Below, in pieces: positions 1 through 6,675 of a DNA stretch of 7,174 nt. This DNA comes from Pseudomonadota bacterium. GTDB taxonomy: Bacteria; Bdellovibrionota_C; UBA2361; OMIW01. Each line of letters begins with the position of its first letter. Position 1 is the stretch's first letter. The notes under the pieces are model-generated. The model saw only the letters and a list, made by a program, of their open reading frames with translations. It was not told the DNA's origin and made no database searches. The stretch lies in contig OMIW01000200.1 in the NCBI GenBank assembly GCA_900299205.1, positions 1 through 7,174 of the forward strand. The letters are read 5' to 3'. The translations under genes and the position numbers were made by a program.

Positions 1-340
1 CCATTTCCTGAGCGCGCGCCACAGTAAATCGGGCGAGCAAGGACCTGTCGGACTCAGTAAGTTCGAAGGGCGCGAAACAAATCGCCTCTATCGCCTCTTC
101 AGCTTTCGCTACCTCCTCGACCTTCACTTCGTCATCGGCCGCCATGGCGAGAGCCAAGGCCTCCACGAAGCCCATGACTTCCGCTCCATATCGTTCGGAA
201 AGGTTCATAATCACAAAAAACCGTTTGACGGCAAGGGTATCCCAGTCGAATTTCAGAAGCAATAGTTCGTAAGCGATTACCGTTATTATCCGCAGTGGGT
301 GATTTCGAGGGGGTGAGGGTGAGCAATGACAGCCTCCCAT
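1..340 (-). CDS. Partial CDS with TerB-like helical region (runs off left edge)
   Basis: Seen: a minus-strand frame is open from ATG at 340 to the window edge, giving 113 residues with the C-terminus missing. Residues about 45-113 are helical and acidic. They include the stretch ALAMAADDEV (residues 63-72) followed by glutamate/lysine-rich helix, which resembles the A-x-x-AD-G/D-x-V-x-x-E pattern of TerB-like (tellurite resistance TerB) domains. That match is by eye and not certain. The start is doubtful. ATG340 lies three bases after the upstream stop (TGATAAATG), suggesting coupling, but the first 16 residues (Cys, Pro and Ser rich) look unlike the rest. TTG at 262 and ATG at 208 (in frame) are alternatives; ATG208 would still keep the whole TerB-like part. 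No clear Shine-Dalgarno sits before any of them; a GGGGAG lies 13 bases ahead of ATG340. I infer a cytoplasmic or membrane-associated protein in the same transcript as the upstream fusion gene. Function unknown. Confidence 0.6.
   Translation of the reverse strand, partial: MGGCHCSPSPPRNHPLRIITVIAYELLLLKFDWDTLAVKRFFVIMNLSERYGAEVMGFVEALALAMAADDEVKVEEVAKAEEAIEAICFAPFELTESDRSLLARFTVARAQEM
215..232 (-). terminator. Weak terminator-like hairpin plus T-run
   Basis: Read on the minus strand, GCCGT-CAA-ACGGT is followed directly by a run of T (the A6 at 215-220 on the plus strand). The stem is only four Watson-Crick pairs plus one G-T pair, which is short for an intrinsic terminator. It lies 110-130 bases after the fusion gene's stop and inside the open frame of the next gene, just before that gene's in-frame ATG at 208. 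It may end or attenuate the fusion transcript, or it may simply be coding sequence. It leaves almost no room for a promoter if translation starts at 208. Confidence 0.25.
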
Positions 341-343
341 TTA

Positions 344-3300
344 TCAGTAATTGCTCCCCACGGAAAAGTGGAATCGCATGCGGGGTTCGTATTCCTCTGG
401 GTTCAGTGGGAAGCCGAGGTCGAACCCGACGGGGCCGATCGGGGAGAGGAATCGTACCCCGACACCGTAACCGGTGCGTTGGTCGGTGAGGGAGGGATGC
501 TGATCGCGGAGGAAGACATTTCCGATATCGATAAAGGTATGGAGTGATACCCTTTCGGCGACCCGGCGCTGGAGTTGGATGCTCGAGGCGGAGAGGATAT
601 CGCCTCCGATCACGTTGCCGAGTTCGCCACGGGGGCCGAGGGAGTTTTCGCGGAATCCTCGTATTGAGTTCCTCCCACCGAGATAAAACCGTTGGGTAAT
701 CGGAATGTTGTCAGTACCGCTTAGCCCCTTGGCTGCGCCCCATCGGGTACTCGCTGCGAGAGACCATGGGCTGATGGGGGAAAAGAGGGGAAGTATAGTC
801 GATCCCCGGACGACACCTGAGAGGTACGAAGCATCTGAGCCCAGGGCGTTGGTTGCGAGTGTACCGTCGAAGCCAAGGGTGTATCCCGAGGTCGGCATGA
901 GGGGAGCATCGCGTCGGTCGATGGTAAGAGAGGAGTTCAGAGAGCTGAGGAGAACGGTGCCGGAGTCAAATCGGCTGAGCTGGACATCGGCGGGGACGTT
1001 GAAGATTGATTCGCGAGCAAGGGAGTGACCGAGAGTGAGGCCGACGCCGGTTGTGTCAGCGCGGTACAGGTAGGAAGACGCGATGCTCCGCTCGACATCG
1101 AATTCCTGGGTGGTCGTTGAGAGTTTTTGGAAACGAAGGTCCTCAACGAATGAATAGGGCGAATCGAGGATTGAGGGAATTGAGTAGAGGACCGACGCTA
1201 TTCCCTGCGATACTTCAAGAGTGCTCGGGAGTACGAAGAGATCGGCTCGAAAGGAGAGCTCTCGGCCATCAAGAAAGAGCGAACGATCGGAGGCCTCACC
1301 GAAGACGTGCGCTCCGAACTGTGAGTTGGCACCGCCTCCTAGTCGTAGGAAGCTCAAGGGACGCTCAACAACCTTGATGGTAAGCTCCCGAAGAAGAGGG
1401 TCGGGAGAGGGGTTTTCACTAAAAAGCACCGATGAGAAGAGCCCGAGCTTGAGAATCTTACGACGTCCCTCCTCGAGGGCGCGTTGTGCCCATGGCTGTC
1501 CTTCGCGTATACGGAGCGCATTGAGGATGGCGCTGTTCGGGACCGAGACATTTCCCTCGATGATGATGCGCGAGAGGGTGACGGGAGCGCCGGGTTGTAC
1601 CTTGAGGATGAAGGTGGGCGCGACGGTTTCTGAAGTATTCGACGATTGCGCCTGAAGTGAAAGGGCGGCTCCGTGATAGCCTGCATCTTTGAGCTGCTGA
1701 GCGAGGTCAGTGATGAGATCGTTAATGGCGCGGGTGCTGACGGGCTGATCGGGAAGTTTTGGTGGGGATATATCGAGAGGAAGTCCCGCGATAGTGGCAA
1801 GTCGCACGAGGCGGCGGTTACCCTCGGCGATCAGATAGCGGATAGCGGCGCGATTTCTCGTGGAGGGGATAATCTCGTAGGAAACGGTCGTACCTGTGTA
1901 GCCGAGGTCGCGGTAGATGTCTTCAATGACTGTGGCGTTGCCCCGAATATCTTCATCGACCGCGAACCGAGGGGACAGGAGCGAAAGCCCGGGTGTCGTC
2001 CGTTCTCTTTTTTTTATCTCCTTTTGAAGCGCGGTGACGGAGAATGCTCTGGTTCCGATGAACTCCACCTTGCGGACGGTGACAAGCGATTGTTCATTAA
2101 TCTGGATTTGATAACGAACTTCGTCCCCCGTTTTACCCTCGGGATTCTCGGTGGTGAGATCCTCTCGTTGGTGAGAGACGGTCGCGTTGAGGTATCCCGC
2201 TCGGCGATATCGTTCGGCTATGGAATCGGCGAGAAGGATGATGCTGTTGTTGCCAAAAGGAAGGGTGCGGTCGAGAAGATTAACGGTCTCGAGGAGTTCA
2301 TCACTCGAGAAGTGGGTATTGCCGGTGAAGACGAAGGTATGCCGGGGGCCTGGGTCGATGCGAAGGTTGAGGGTGTGGGTCGTGCCGGGTTTTGATGTTT
2401 TTGCCTCTGAGGGCTGATAAGAACTTTCAACACGGTTGGAGAAATATCCCTGTTCGCGGAGGTGGCGAATTATCTTCGAGCGGGCATCTTGTTCGAATGA
2501 AGCGGTTGCAAGGGTACGTTTTGATAGTGAGTCGATTATCTTGCGAGGGAGAAGCGATTCGCGAATGTCCCCCTCGAGGGAAATTCCCTCGACGTAATGA
2601 GGTTCGCCCTCGTCGATAAAGATATCAAGAGCCGCACACAACTCTCCTTCGGTGGTTTGGCGAGGGGTCACGGTGCAGCGGGCGGTGACCGCCGCGCTTC
2701 GGTAGCCACGCTCGTGATATGCAGTTGTCACGCGACGGGTGAGCGATTTAACTTGAGCAGCGTTGATCGGCCGAGTCCGTTTTATCTTGGCGAGTTGGAG
2801 GATTTGGGAACTTTCAAATGCGTCATTACCGATAAAAGAGATCGTGAGAGGAACCCGCTCTTTTGATTTGAGGGTGAGTGCAACATCGACACCGAGCTGA
2901 GTACCTTGCCGAAGTGAGTTTGATTCGAGAGTTCCGGTGAGGGTGACAGCATCAAGGAGCCGATAGTCGAGCCGAGCGCGCGACTCTGAGACAGGACCAC
3001 TGAAGAGTCCTTCGCCAGATAGAGATATTTTGTCGGTAACTCTCTTGGTCGCGACAACGGCAGGGTCGATACTTCCGGTTGAGTTGTTATAAGCTGGCTC
3101 AACCGAGAGAGTATCGATGCGGGTAAGTCGGTTGAGGAGCGTACCCCCCGAGAGGGGGCCGTTTTGATCGAAGAGGGAGATGTCGCGATAATTCAGCCCG
3201 ACACCGAAGCGGCTCATCGTGGATTGTCGGGTGAGGTCGGAGCGCCCACCGCCTCCCGTTAAAAGGGCGAGGATTTCGCGCTGCGAGAGGCCTCTATCCG

Positions 3301-6106
3301 AGGAGAGAAGGATCTTGGGATTGTCAGCAGGACCGCGCGCCTCAAGGATAACAGAGTTGGTCTCACCGATCGATGACAGGATGGTGGCCTGCCCGAGGAT
3401 CTCAATTCTGGGGAGCGGTTGGTCCTCCTGAAAGATGACGTTTCCAGAAACGAGCGAGAACTTGGTCTCTTTGAAGCCGAACCATCCAGAAAGAGCCTCT
3501 GCCTTGCCGACGATGACAGGTCGGGCAGAGGTACCAGTGATCGCGAGATCGGCCTTTAACTCAGCCTCAGCCCAGTTGGTCGCGAGGAAGAGATCGTGAT
3601 CGCCGTGGATGGTGAGGTTAAGCTCAAGGGCACCCTCAGAAGGGGCTCTCGCAGATGCTGTCTGTTGCCTTTCACCGATAAGTGATTGGGAGATCAGTTT
3701 TGCAACAGCACCGAGTCCAATATTCTTCTCGAACGACGCAGATTGAAGGGTAAGAGTCCCGCCAAGCTGAGGAGTAAGGCTGGGAGACCACGTTATCGAG
3801 AGGTCACCATCAGCGGTCGTGGAGAGATCCGCGATGGCGTCGAAGCGAACCCCGGTGATGGTTGCGGAGATGAGCGATGTTTGGGGGGTGGAGAGATTGA
3901 TGGTCCCCTTCGCAGTTGCAGTGCCACCATTAATTATTCCACTCAATGATGAAATGGTGAGCTGTTTACCATCGAGTTGACCGTGACCGACAATTTCATT
4001 CGCCTCGATCGCTGACTGAGTGAGAGAGACCCGCCCCTTGCTAAAATCAACCGAGCCGGTGAATGAGGGCGTTCCGATGGGCCCGCCGATCTGGACTGAA
4101 CCTGAGAAGAGTCCCGAAGCGTTGTCAACGGCAGGGATGAGATCAAGCAGACTCTCGAGTCGGATACCCCCGGAGAGCTTTGCTCTGTATCCTTCGGCGA
4201 GCGAGACCCACCCTGTTGCGGCAAGTGCGCTGCCGTTGCCACTGAGGGCAAGGGTAGCAAGGTTTGCGCGCCCTCCTTTTATCGCGATCTTCGCAGGGGA
4301 GGGGAGAGCCATCTCGTAAGGTTGGCAGCCGATGCGGAGAGAGTCTAGGGCGGTAGCACCGTTGCCCGCAAGGGGGTTGTCGAGCGAGTAGGTGTACGAG
4401 GTCGTCGCGGATATTGAGAGGCAGAGCTGTTCGGTAGGCGAAATAGGAGGAGTGAATTGGGCGAGGGTCAGGGTAAGGGTGCTCGGTGTCGTGCCGTCGA
4501 TGATGATGGAGCTTTTCACCTTTGCTCGACCAGTCTCGTCTCCCCCGGTTACCGAGAGGGTGCCATCCTTGAGGATGAGATTACCTTTGAGTATGTGGGG
4601 CACCGGGTAGAGACCCGAGAGGGGTTGGTAACTGACATCGAGGGTTCCTTTACCTCGGATGCCGGTAGTTGTCAGAGGGCCGGAAAGGGCCATACTCCCT
4701 GAGATGAGAAGATCATCCACAACTGACGGGGCGCGGATATCGGAAACTCGAAGGCCAGTCGCGGTGAGGGAGAGATCCGTGAAGGATGGATCATCGATGG
4801 TAGAGAGGTTGAGAGAACCCTTAGCTCGGAGGGTGTTCTGGTCGGTTGTGAGGGTGAAGCCGAGGATGCGTTCGCGAAAGGTGCCGTTGGCGATGAATGA
4901 GCCGAGATTATAATCGAGAAAATGCCCGGCGGCCGCTGCAAGATTGAGATCTAGCTCAGGCCGCTCGAGGGTGCCTGAGAGGGCAACCCTGAGGGTCGCA
5001 TCGTGAGCGCTGACAACATCGGTCGTGAGATGATCGAGGTGGAGGGTCGCGCTTCCGATGACGGTGTCTCCGCGCAGGGTAAACGCACCGTTGGCGATCG
5101 ATGTGCCTCCTCCCTGAGCGGTGATATCGCGGAGAGATACGATAGGATCGCCGTGGTTGATATCGACGGTGAAGCGACCCGACGACTTATCAAAAATGAA
5201 GAGTGGAGTGCCACCGGGAGCCACGGTAAGGGGAGGAGTACCCTGGAGGTTTCCATCAAAGCGAGGGCTCCCCAAGGTGTCTGACACCGTTGTTGTGCCG
5301 GTGACGGTGCCGATGAGGGTGGGTGATATTCCGAGCGATTCGGCATGAAGAGTGAGCGACCCCGAACCCGAGAGTTCGTTGTCCTTATCGGTATTCGATG
5401 TTGCCGAGAGGAGCAGCGCGGTCTGTCGATGTGCCACTGCGATGGTATGAAAGATGGCCTCAGCCGAGGTGATCGTCAGTTCGGAGCGGGCTCCCCCGAC
5501 GGTGAAGGTGTGTTCAAGGCTAGGGCGGGGATAACGGACTGAAATATCGTTGATGACGGGAAGAAGTTTGAAGGTATCGTCGCGGTTGCGGTGAACTTCG
5601 AGCGATACCCCATGAGCGTGAAGCTCTGCGGTCCGAAATCGCTCTAAAAAACTACCATCGGAAACAGTGAGTCGCTCGAGGAGGATCCGCCATCGGTCGG
5701 GGGTATCCTTCTCGGGGGGGAGTGGAGCGGTCAGGTGATCGATAAATCGGAAGGTGCCGCTCTCTTCGCCAACTCCCTCGGCGTGAGTGCCGATAAGTTC
5801 AAGGTGGTCGAGATGGACCTGACGGGAGAGAATATCGCGGAGCCCGAATCGAGCTCGAAGCCGTTTAACCGTCAGGTGGGGAGTGCCCCTGACCATCAGC
5901 TTGACGTTCCGGGCTTCGGCTGAGAGGGTAAGGAGAGAGATGGAGGCGGACTCATATACGATAGAGCCGCCACACGCAGTAACCGCCTCATCATCGAGGA
6001 GTCCGATAAGAGAGCGGACGGCCTCTTTTTTGAGCTTTCCGCCGAGGATGAGACCACTGCATACGAGCGCCAGGGTGAGAATGAGCAAAAGGCGCTTAAC
6101 CGGCAT
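344..6106 (-). CDS. TamB-Omp85 (TamB-TamA/BamA) fusion, trans-envelope assembly/transport protein
   Basis: One uninterrupted 1920-residue frame. Residues 5-22 are an uncleaved-looking signal anchor after a basic start, as in TamB. Residues 24 to about 720 are AsmA/TamB-like beta repeats (G-x-P-x-x-x-G units near 278, 378, 675). Residues about 720-1078 match the TamB C-terminal domain (DUF490): SGWFGFKETKFSL at 873, GPADNPKILLSS at 925, SQREILALLTGG at 941. Residues 1086-1583 hold six POTRA-like repeats, each with a helix ending in GY (G1134, 1220, 1304, 1402, 1476; GL at 1555). Residues 1584-1920 are an Omp85 barrel with IRGF (1815-1818, the loop-6 motif), FIDIGN (1858-1863) and a BamA-type end, FHFSVGSNY. 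E. coli TamB, TamA and BamA have 1259, 577 and 810 residues, so both halves are full size. Family role: TamB/AsmA-like proteins bridge the envelope and carry lipids or aid outer-membrane protein assembly; Omp85 proteins insert barrels. ATG6106 is the only plausible start (in-frame stop about 19 codons upstream) and lacks a Shine-Dalgarno. A lone TATATT (6196-6201) could be a -10, without a good -35. Confidence 0.93.
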   Translation of the reverse strand: MPVKRLLLILTLALVCSGLILGGKLKKEAVRSLIGLLDDEAVTACGGSIVYESASISLLTLSAEARNVKLMVRGTPHLTVKRLRARFGLRDILSRQVHLDHLELIGTHAEGVGEESGTFRFIDHLTAPLPPEKDTPDRWRILLERLTVSDGSFLERFRTAELHAHGVSLEVHRNRDDTFKLLPVINDISVRYPRPSLEHTFTVGGARSELTITSAEAIFHTIAVAHRQTALLLSATSNTDKDNELSGSGSLTLHAESLGISPTLIGTVTGTTTVSDTLGSPRFDGNLQGTPPLTVAPGGTPLFIFDKSSGRFTVDINHGDPIVSLRDITAQGGGTSIANGAFTLRGDTVIGSATLHLDHLTTDVVSAHDATLRVALSGTLERPELDLNLAAAAGHFLDYNLGSFIANGTFRERILGFTLTTDQNTLRAKGSLNLSTIDDPSFTDLSLTATGLRVSDIRAPSVVDDLLISGSMALSGPLTTTGIRGKGTLDVSYQPLSGLYPVPHILKGNLILKDGTLSVTGGDETGRAKVKSSIIIDGTTPSTLTLTLAQFTPPISPTEQLCLSISATTSYTYSLDNPLAGNGATALDSLRIGCQPYEMALPSPAKIAIKGGRANLATLALSGNGSALAATGWVSLAEGYRAKLSGGIRLESLLDLIPAVDNASGLFSGSVQIGGPIGTPSFTGSVDFSKGRVSLTQSAIEANEIVGHGQLDGKQLTISSLSGIINGGTATAKGTINLSTPQTSLISATITGVRFDAIADLSTTADGDLSITWSPSLTPQLGGTLTLQSASFEKNIGLGAVAKLISQSLIGERQQTASARAPSEGALELNLTIHGDHDLFLATNWAEAELKADLAITGTSARPVIVGKAEALSGWFGFKETKFSLVSGNVIFQEDQPLPRIEILGQATILSSIGETNSVILEARGPADNPKILLSSDRGLSQREILALLTGGGGRSDLTRQSTMSRFGVGLNYRDISLFDQNGPLSGGTLLNRLTRIDTLSVEPAYNNSTGSIDPAVVATKRVTDKISLSGEGLFSGPVSESRARLDYRLLDAVTLTGTLESNSLRQGTQLGVDVALTLKSKERVPLTISFIGNDAFESSQILQLAKIKRTRPINAAQVKSLTRRVTTAYHERGYRSAAVTARCTVTPRQTTEGELCAALDIFIDEGEPHYVEGISLEGDIRESLLPRKIIDSLSKRTLATASFEQDARSKIIRHLREQGYFSNRVESSYQPSEAKTSKPGTTHTLNLRIDPGPRHTFVFTGNTHFSSDELLETVNLLDRTLPFGNNSIILLADSIAERYRRAGYLNATVSHQREDLTTENPEGKTGDEVRYQIQINEQSLVTVRKVEFIGTRAFSVTALQKEIKKRERTTPGLSLLSPRFAVDEDIRGNATVIEDIYRDLGYTGTTVSYEIIPSTRNRAAIRYLIAEGNRRLVRLATIAGLPLDISPPKLPDQPVSTRAINDLITDLAQQLKDAGYHGAALSLQAQSSNTSETVAPTFILKVQPGAPVTLSRIIIEGNVSVPNSAILNALRIREGQPWAQRALEEGRRKILKLGLFSSVLFSENPSPDPLLRELTIKVVERPLSFLRLGGGANSQFGAHVFGEASDRSLFLDGRELSFRADLFVLPSTLEVSQGIASVLYSIPSILDSPYSFVEDLRFQKLSTTTQEFDVERSIASSYLYRADTTGVGLTLGHSLARESIFNVPADVQLSRFDSGTVLLSSLNSSLTIDRRDAPLMPTSGYTLGFDGTLATNALGSDASYLSGVVRGSTILPLFSPISPWSLAASTRWGAAKGLSGTDNIPITQRFYLGGRNSIRGFRENSLGPRGELGNVIGGDILSASSIQLQRRVAERVSLHTFIDIGNVFLRDQHPSLTDQRTGYGVGVRFLSPIGPVGFDLGFPLNPEEYEPRMRFHFSVGSNY

Positions 6107-6252: not shown

Positions 6253-6675
6253 CTATAATCGACAGTTAGCACACCTTGTCACGACCTGAACCGATCCCTC
6301 CCGAGCCAAAGGGACCCTCGAGCGGAGGACATAGAACCCTCCTTGTTGGGGGGCAAGGCGAGATGGACCTCTGAGTTGGAGCACGATGCCATCGCTGAGC
6401 TCCGCATAGACGATGATATCGGTAGCCGGGTGACTCCCGAGGTTGCGAACCTCGACATTGAGGTGCCGCAACTCAAGCCCTCGCTGATTTCTCACCACCA
6501 GGCAAACGGGCTCATCAGCTCGCAGCCTCGTCAGTGGCCTGAATCCGGAAGAGGGCGCAGTATTCTGAGCGTCCGATCGCCGGGGAGAGGCGCAAGCGGA
6601 GAAAGAGAAGCCTCCGATTGAAGCAAGAGATACCAATGCCACGCGGAGGAAAAGGGGGAAGATTTGAGCGATCAT
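6253..6675 (-). CDS. Probable exported small lipoprotein with FxLYD/CARDB-like beta-sandwich
   Basis: A 140-residue protein. Residues 1-27 form an export signal: one Arg at 11, a hydrophobic core (VALVSLASIGGF), then FSAC with Cys28, an imperfect lipobox because position -3 is Phe. Cleavage by signal peptidase I near ACA-S is the alternative. After a Pro/Ser-rich linker (about 29-50), residues 55-133 alternate hydrophobic and polar strands. The stretch VEVRNLGSHPATDIIVYAEL (74-93) resembles the 'conserved NxG/S, then strand' core of FxLYD or CARDB-type immunoglobulin-like domains in exported proteins. That is a resemblance by eye, not a search. The protein ends CANCRL, with C135 and C138 as a CxxC pair and one more Cys at 58. 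ATG6675 is taken because an in-frame stop lies three codons upstream; it has no Shine-Dalgarno and sits in a possible hairpin. It ends 146 bases before the fusion gene with no visible terminator between, so co-transcription is plausible. Function unknown; a periplasmic accessory to the fusion is only an inference. Confidence 0.72.
   Translation of the reverse strand: MIAQIFPLFLRVALVSLASIGGFSFSACASPRRSDAQNTAPSSGFRPLTRLRADEPVCLVVRNQRGLELRHLNVEVRNLGSHPATDIIVYAELSDGIVLQLRGPSRLAPQQGGFYVLRSRVPLAREGSVQVVTRCANCRL

Follow-up and report, generated by a model that had tools for sequence, protein, structure and literature searches.

Does this locus truly encode TamB and an Omp85 protein as a single chain, and if so, what might such a chain do? 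On the minus strand of the window, i.e., the whole 7174-base stretch of DNA analysed here, positions 344-6106 form one intact frame of 1920 codons from an ATG to a stop, corresponding to a protein of 1920 aa.

Domain composition of the fused frame

Pfam profiles recover both halves of this protein. The TamB domain (PF04357) is matched with E 1.3e-35 and 123.8 bits against a cut-off of 22.4, the POTRA model (PF07244) reaches 2.4e-34 for the whole protein, and the Omp85 barrel (PF01103) is matched at residues 1638-1918 with E 1e-45, the last two also far above their cut-offs. These three matches follow one another along the chain and uphold the original prediction of a real fusion with TamB in front; together with AlphaFold2 models, they also confirm its coordinates, domain order and completeness (Table 1). 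To this we add a count of six POTRAs, for which the prediction gave no number. The combination of POTRAs, a 16-stranded barrel and an IRGF motif is that of the Omp85 superfamily. At the other end of the chain, a hydropathy scan places the sole strongly hydrophobic 19-mer (2.2) within the first 21 residues, the best beyond residue 60 being 1.24, and the N-terminal helix carries no obvious signal-peptidase site as judged by eye.

Table 1. Features of the fused gene, in window coordinates
Feature	Residues	Position	Strand	Basis or remark
Whole fused gene		344..6106	-	1920 aa; ATG at 6106, stop 344-346; one frame in 25/28 same-order genomes
N-terminal hydrophobic helix, predicted inner-membrane anchor	3-21	6044..6100	-	hydropathy and model
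TamB beta-groove, ~46 successive amphipathic strands	47-936	3299..5968	-	AlphaFold2 model, Foldseek/VIA, strand alternation
Pfam TamB PF04357 (former DUF490)	726-1063	2918..3931	-	Pfam
TamB C-terminal six strands	999-1080	2867..3112	-	both AlphaFold2 models, VIA
TamB last strand	1068-1080	2867-2905	-	both AlphaFold2 models
Fusion junction, TamB last strand to POTRA 1	1081-1086	2849..2866	-	alignment and structure models
POTRA 1	1087-1168	2603..2848	-	family-specific HMM; homologous to second POTRA of unfused relatives
POTRA 2	1170-1253	2348..2599	-	family-specific HMM
POTRA 3	1256-1339	2090..2341	-	family-specific HMM
POTRA 4	1342-1430	1817..2083	-	family-specific HMM
POTRA 5	1434-1507	1586..1807	-	family-specific HMM
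POTRA 6, barrel-proximal	1509-1584	1355..1582	-	family-specific HMM
Omp85 16-stranded barrel	1585-1920	347..1354	-	Pfam PF01103 and model
IRGF motif	1815-1818	653-664	-	within barrel; corresponds to (V/I)RG(F/Y) of Omp85

AlphaFold2 was run in two overlapping parts (residues 1-1086 and 800-1920) on orthologue alignments. In the first model, one N-terminal helix (residues 3-45) is followed by about 46 strands in succession and by a C-terminal domain whose end is formed by six strands. The second again has the six strands at the TamB C-terminus, then the POTRAs and a barrel of 16 strands, with a mean pLDDT of 76.7 and values mostly of 85-95 in the barrel. The relative placement of domains is uncertain in these models (pTM 0.54 and 0.50). 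The best PDB match of the N-terminal model is 9xdc_B, the TamB of the TamAB cryo-EM complex (Foldseek, E 1.4e-11); further, VIA aligns it with TamB in 9xdd_B (Z 16.9, rmsd 3.9 over 268 residues) and with the TamB taco 5vtg (Z 12.8, rmsd 2.6 over 132 residues). Thus, the model has the extended beta-groove with a hydrophobic face and the taco fold that characterize TamB, and the hydropathy alternation along its strands exceeds that of all 2000 shuffles. The six terminal strands mimicking OMP strands, another TamB trait, are present in both models. Additionally, the N-terminus of the N-terminal model matches Vps13 (Z 9.0), and a structure search with the C-terminal model finds BamA and TamA. A profile comparison with E. 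coli TamB (91% probability) ends short of the junction, which the structural alignment reaches.

The gene is flanked upstream by an ORF of 140 aa (window 6253-6675, minus strand) with a lipoprotein-like start (FSAC) and no Pfam or NCBIfam match. Downstream, an ORF on the same strand (window 2-340) is cut by the contig end, and its portion 2-205 has no Pfam match.

Conservation within the order

The window is the entire contig of a fragmented MAG, a situation that favours reading the joined frame as an assembly error, or as a one-off fusion in a single MAG. Against this, TamB and Omp85 occupy one frame of the same length (1720-1942 aa) in 25 of the 28 genomes of the same order, drawn from many assemblies and in some cases from contigs of 50-100 kb; in the other three (G008, G013, G025) the locus is interrupted, apparently by contig ends. 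Moreover, identity over residues 800-1920, the half that includes the junction, is 32-38% within the order. The conservation of the fused frame in independent assemblies rules out an assembly error, leaving this reading with practically no credence, and the low identity indicates that the fusion is old. Throughout the order the fused frame is the norm, and the separate-gene arrangement in close relatives against which the original prediction had hedged is not what these genomes display; no unfused tamA or tamB was seen in the order. Those of its members that bear names are MAGs labelled Deltaproteobacteria, Oligoflexia, Bdellovibrionales and Ca. Dadabacteria.

Identity of the Omp85 half and genomic context

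The Omp85 half had been taken for a TamA/BamA protein. By score, POTRA number and tree it is neither BamA nor proteobacterial TamA, and instead is a TamB-partner paralogue. It scores 290.3 bits with the NCBIfam BamA equivalog, just below the cut-off of 297.15, which one unfused partner and other fusions narrowly exceed, and 113.2 bits with the TamA equivalog as against a cut-off of 625. Its six POTRAs, delineated with family-specific HMMs, compare with five in BamA and three in proteobacterial TamA. In the barrel tree, the window's order and family f14 group together (100/100), and they join the unfused tamB-linked partners (98/93), apart from the BamA of the phylum.

The genome itself (2.45 Mb, 89.75% complete) encodes LptD and, on contig C161, a separate five-POTRA BamA (802 aa, 595.8 bits). 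Hence, the fusion is not the BamA of this cell, and a BamA-TamB fusion accompanied by loss of BamA is ruled out. Profile searches of this incomplete genome found no TamB besides the fusion and no separate TamA, such that the proposed check for bamA, tamA and tamB returned only bamA as a gene of its own; a separate tamA or tamB could have been missed because the genome is about 90% complete. The same type of search gave no match to AsmA (PF05170) or YhdP (PF13116), and, as judged from these two AsmA-like families in an incomplete genome, the fusion may be the main AsmA-like bridge of the cell. Elsewhere in this genome (L050:5601-7499, G000 contig C28), there is a 632-aa protein that matches POTRA once, and weakly, but does not match Omp85.

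Unfused relatives and the origin of the fusion

In other orders of the phylum, 11 genomes carry tamB and omp85 as separate, adjacent genes on the same strand with tamB first. Most of these pairs are spaced by -4 to +14 nt; two show longer apparent overlaps, which are probably due to starts having been called too far upstream. The original prediction regarded the order of the two halves as a reversal of the usual gene order, retained for the sake of membrane geometry; it is simply the gene order already present in the unfused relatives.

The unfused Omp85 proteins possess a signal-peptide-like N-terminal stretch and an extra first POTRA, both of which the fusion lacks. POTRA-specific HMMs detect counterparts of POTRAs 1-6 in the same order in most unfused partners after about 110 residues, and in several of them these leading residues match a POTRA and so represent an additional first (seventh) copy. 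In the alignment, the last TamB strand of the fusion occupies the place of the last strand of that first POTRA, and about 7 residues join it to POTRA 1. Canonical TamB has, according to one survey (PMC4494059), a free C-terminus ending in F or Y; the fusion has no such free end, as the chain runs on into POTRA 1, a departure that counts against its acting as a TAM. The unfused TamB proteins of the sister orders (L131-L141) terminate in a strand and a tail of about 10-25 residues, and not in the terminal F of canonical TamB. The simplest reading of these sequences would be that adjacent tamB and omp85 genes fused in frame through a deletion which took away the tail and stop of TamB together with the signal peptide and first POTRA of Omp85.

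The junction also bears on whether the protein persists as one chain. Cleavage in the periplasm between TamB and POTRA 1 would yield an ordinary two-protein TAM, with the fusion fixing only stoichiometry and co-export. This is compatible with the sequence, and the unfused relatives work with two proteins from overlapping genes. However, the short junction lies between two predicted strands, contains no disordered linker and shows no large gap across the aligned same-order orthologues; further, the loss of both the first POTRA and the free TamB tail suggests that the joint itself is structural. On balance, we regard cleavage as quite improbable; the permanent covalent conduit of the original prediction is a hypothesis about both the intact chain and transport through it.

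Recurrence of the fusion

The fusion is not unique to the genome of the window: it extends over the whole order, and related fusions are found in family f21 of the phylum and in Acidobacteriota. In the barrel tree, f21 falls within the unfused partners (100/99), and the Acidobacteriota fusions form their own clade (100/99), which includes one unfused protein. A single origin of all fusions, as far as the barrel domain is concerned, is rejected by the AU test (p 1.7e-47 for all fused rows held together). Uniting the order with f14 and f21 is likewise rejected (p 0.013), a value that applies to a group chosen after the tree was viewed and including f21 as a long branch. The fewest changes between the fused and unfused states number four on the unrooted barrel tree, a count that is blind to fusion versus fission. 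As the barrel tree and the AU tests reject one fused clade, the fused state has changed several times.

TamB is present in 123 of 149 sampled Acidobacteriota genomes, and in 35 of these 123 it lies in a frame of at least 2000 aa. All 21 of the long frames inspected contain both domains (four confirmed with Pfam), and one such fusion is located on a 5.985 Mb contig. Acidobacteriota fusions of about 1960-2430 aa are common (L142, L143-L158, L091, L094, L101, L124). Some genomes combine a fused TamB-Omp85 with a second TamB not fused to it (G072, at L175 and L152; G059), and in G072 a separate Omp85 follows closely on the end of the second TamB. The longest frame with a TamB match seen, of 2779 aa, is from an Acidobacteriota genome (G181:C18:226097-227119). 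Omp85 barrels were also noted in frames of 1451-1515 aa with no TamB match (L159 in G116, L160 in G099), whose start codons are uncertain. The order of TamB-Omp85 pairs varies by phylum, with omp85 first in Krumholzibacteriota-type MAGs and tamB first in Zixiibacteriota-type MAGs (L072-L121).

Proposed mechanism

We consider it probable that the gene encodes a single-chain TAM which arose by in-frame fusion, bridges both membranes and most likely moves phospholipid. Its topology, its use as one uncleaved chain, its lipid cargo and a TamAB-like hybrid-barrel contact are what we infer. The N-terminal helix would remain in the inner membrane, and the TamB beta-groove would span the periplasm and carry a hydrophobic cargo toward the outer membrane. 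The TamB C-terminal strands would then reach the barrel rim, with the chain continuing directly into the six POTRAs and the outer-membrane barrel, which the cell's separate BamA would presumably fold and insert. By analogy with E. coli TamB, which has been implicated in phospholipid transport, the cargo would most likely be phospholipid.

In E. coli TamAB, the last strand of TamB pairs with strand 1 of TamA, and both hybrid and non-hybrid states exist (PMC12800296). The end of a strand paired in this way would lie in the periplasm, so that the chain could continue into a POTRA. This geometry fits the junction, given that residue 1081 of the model is aligned with residue 1259, the last of E. 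coli TamB (VIA, judged from the ends of the aligned ranges, at an rmsd of 16 across both domains), and that POTRA 1 starts at 1087. Several barrel-only PDB matches of the model of residues 800-1920 begin at model residues 203-206, i.e., at strand 1 of the TamB C-terminal six. The model hints that the TamB end sits at the barrel seam and that the last TamB strand contacts barrel strand 1; at a pTM of 0.54, the seam contact stays a hint. A stronger version, in which the TamB C-terminal strands permanently complete the Omp85 barrel of their own chain to form a continuous, never-dissociating 1:1 lipid conduit, representing a new and repeatedly evolved class, is possible but doubtful.

Alternatively, the protein might chiefly serve OMP or autotransporter assembly, with TamB as a scaffold that passes unfolded barrels on to the Omp85 insertase joined to it, and with lipid transport a minor activity. 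Barrel assembly is a known Omp85 role, the fusion retains an intact barrel, gate region and IRGF motif, and such a handover has been proposed for the Borrelia BamA-TamB (PMC13382580). However, the same genome has a dedicated BamA, the tethered TamB end could block the gate, a question also raised for Borrelia (PMC13382580), and the long hydrophobic groove with its Vps13-like N-terminal match suits lipid transfer equally or better. We hold a primary role in OMP assembly to be unlikely.

Implications and comparison with known systems

The component parts and the partnership of TamB with Omp85 are already known; the single-chain architecture is new to the literature searched, in which subscription journals are thinly covered. 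The original prediction likewise knew of no described example, and the passages and word searches covered in the two main surveys (PMC4104836, PMC4494059) contain no mention of a fusion. Several groups of little-known two-membrane bacteria make TamB and its barrel partner as one giant chain, so that the cell would have a pre-assembled bridge with which to build its outer membrane. Surveys that treat TamB and Omp85 as two genes have overlooked a sizeable group, some of the Acidobacteriota among it. The repeated occurrence of natural fusions indicates that the two proteins can function when permanently joined 1:1 and that the free C-terminus of TamB is dispensable. Further, the overlapping tamB-omp85 genes suggest an intermediate route to such a bridge, and the fusion offers a single-gene construct for structural and transport work.

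The E. coli TAM shares with the fusion the TamB groove and six-stranded C-terminal domain as well as the Omp85 barrel with POTRAs, its TamB anchor has a predicted counterpart in the fusion, and in its structure the TamB end reaches the Omp85 barrel (PMC12800296). However, it consists of two proteins encoded with tamA before tamB, its TamA has three POTRAs and its TamB a free C-terminus; the fusion is one chain with TamB first and six POTRAs, and in this sense is not a two-polypeptide TAM. The hybrid BAM-TAM of Borrelia is alike in that the TamB partner is an Omp85 other than TamA (PMC11361582, PMC13382580), and the Spirochaetes gene order, TamB-BamA (PMC4494059), likewise has TamB first. Unlike the fusion, this system comprises two proteins, and the partner is the sole, canonical BamA, whereas the fusion's partner is a separate paralogue beside a retained BamA. 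The second BamA of Acidobacteriota, as described in PMC4494059, resembles the fusion's partner in being a TamB-linked Omp85 paralogue beside BamA, and in some cases has seven POTRAs, as do the unfused relatives described here; that survey gives for Acidobacteriota only a BamA-before-TamB operon, whereas we find many with TamB-Omp85 in one frame. Finally, a one-chain bridge from inner to outer membrane has a precedent in the transenvelope MlaD of Veillonella parvula, in which one chain combines an inner-membrane anchor with an outer-membrane barrel of its own and is a proposed phospholipid bridge, although it belongs to the MCE family, has an unrelated barrel and is proposed to act in retrograde transport (PMC10665443).
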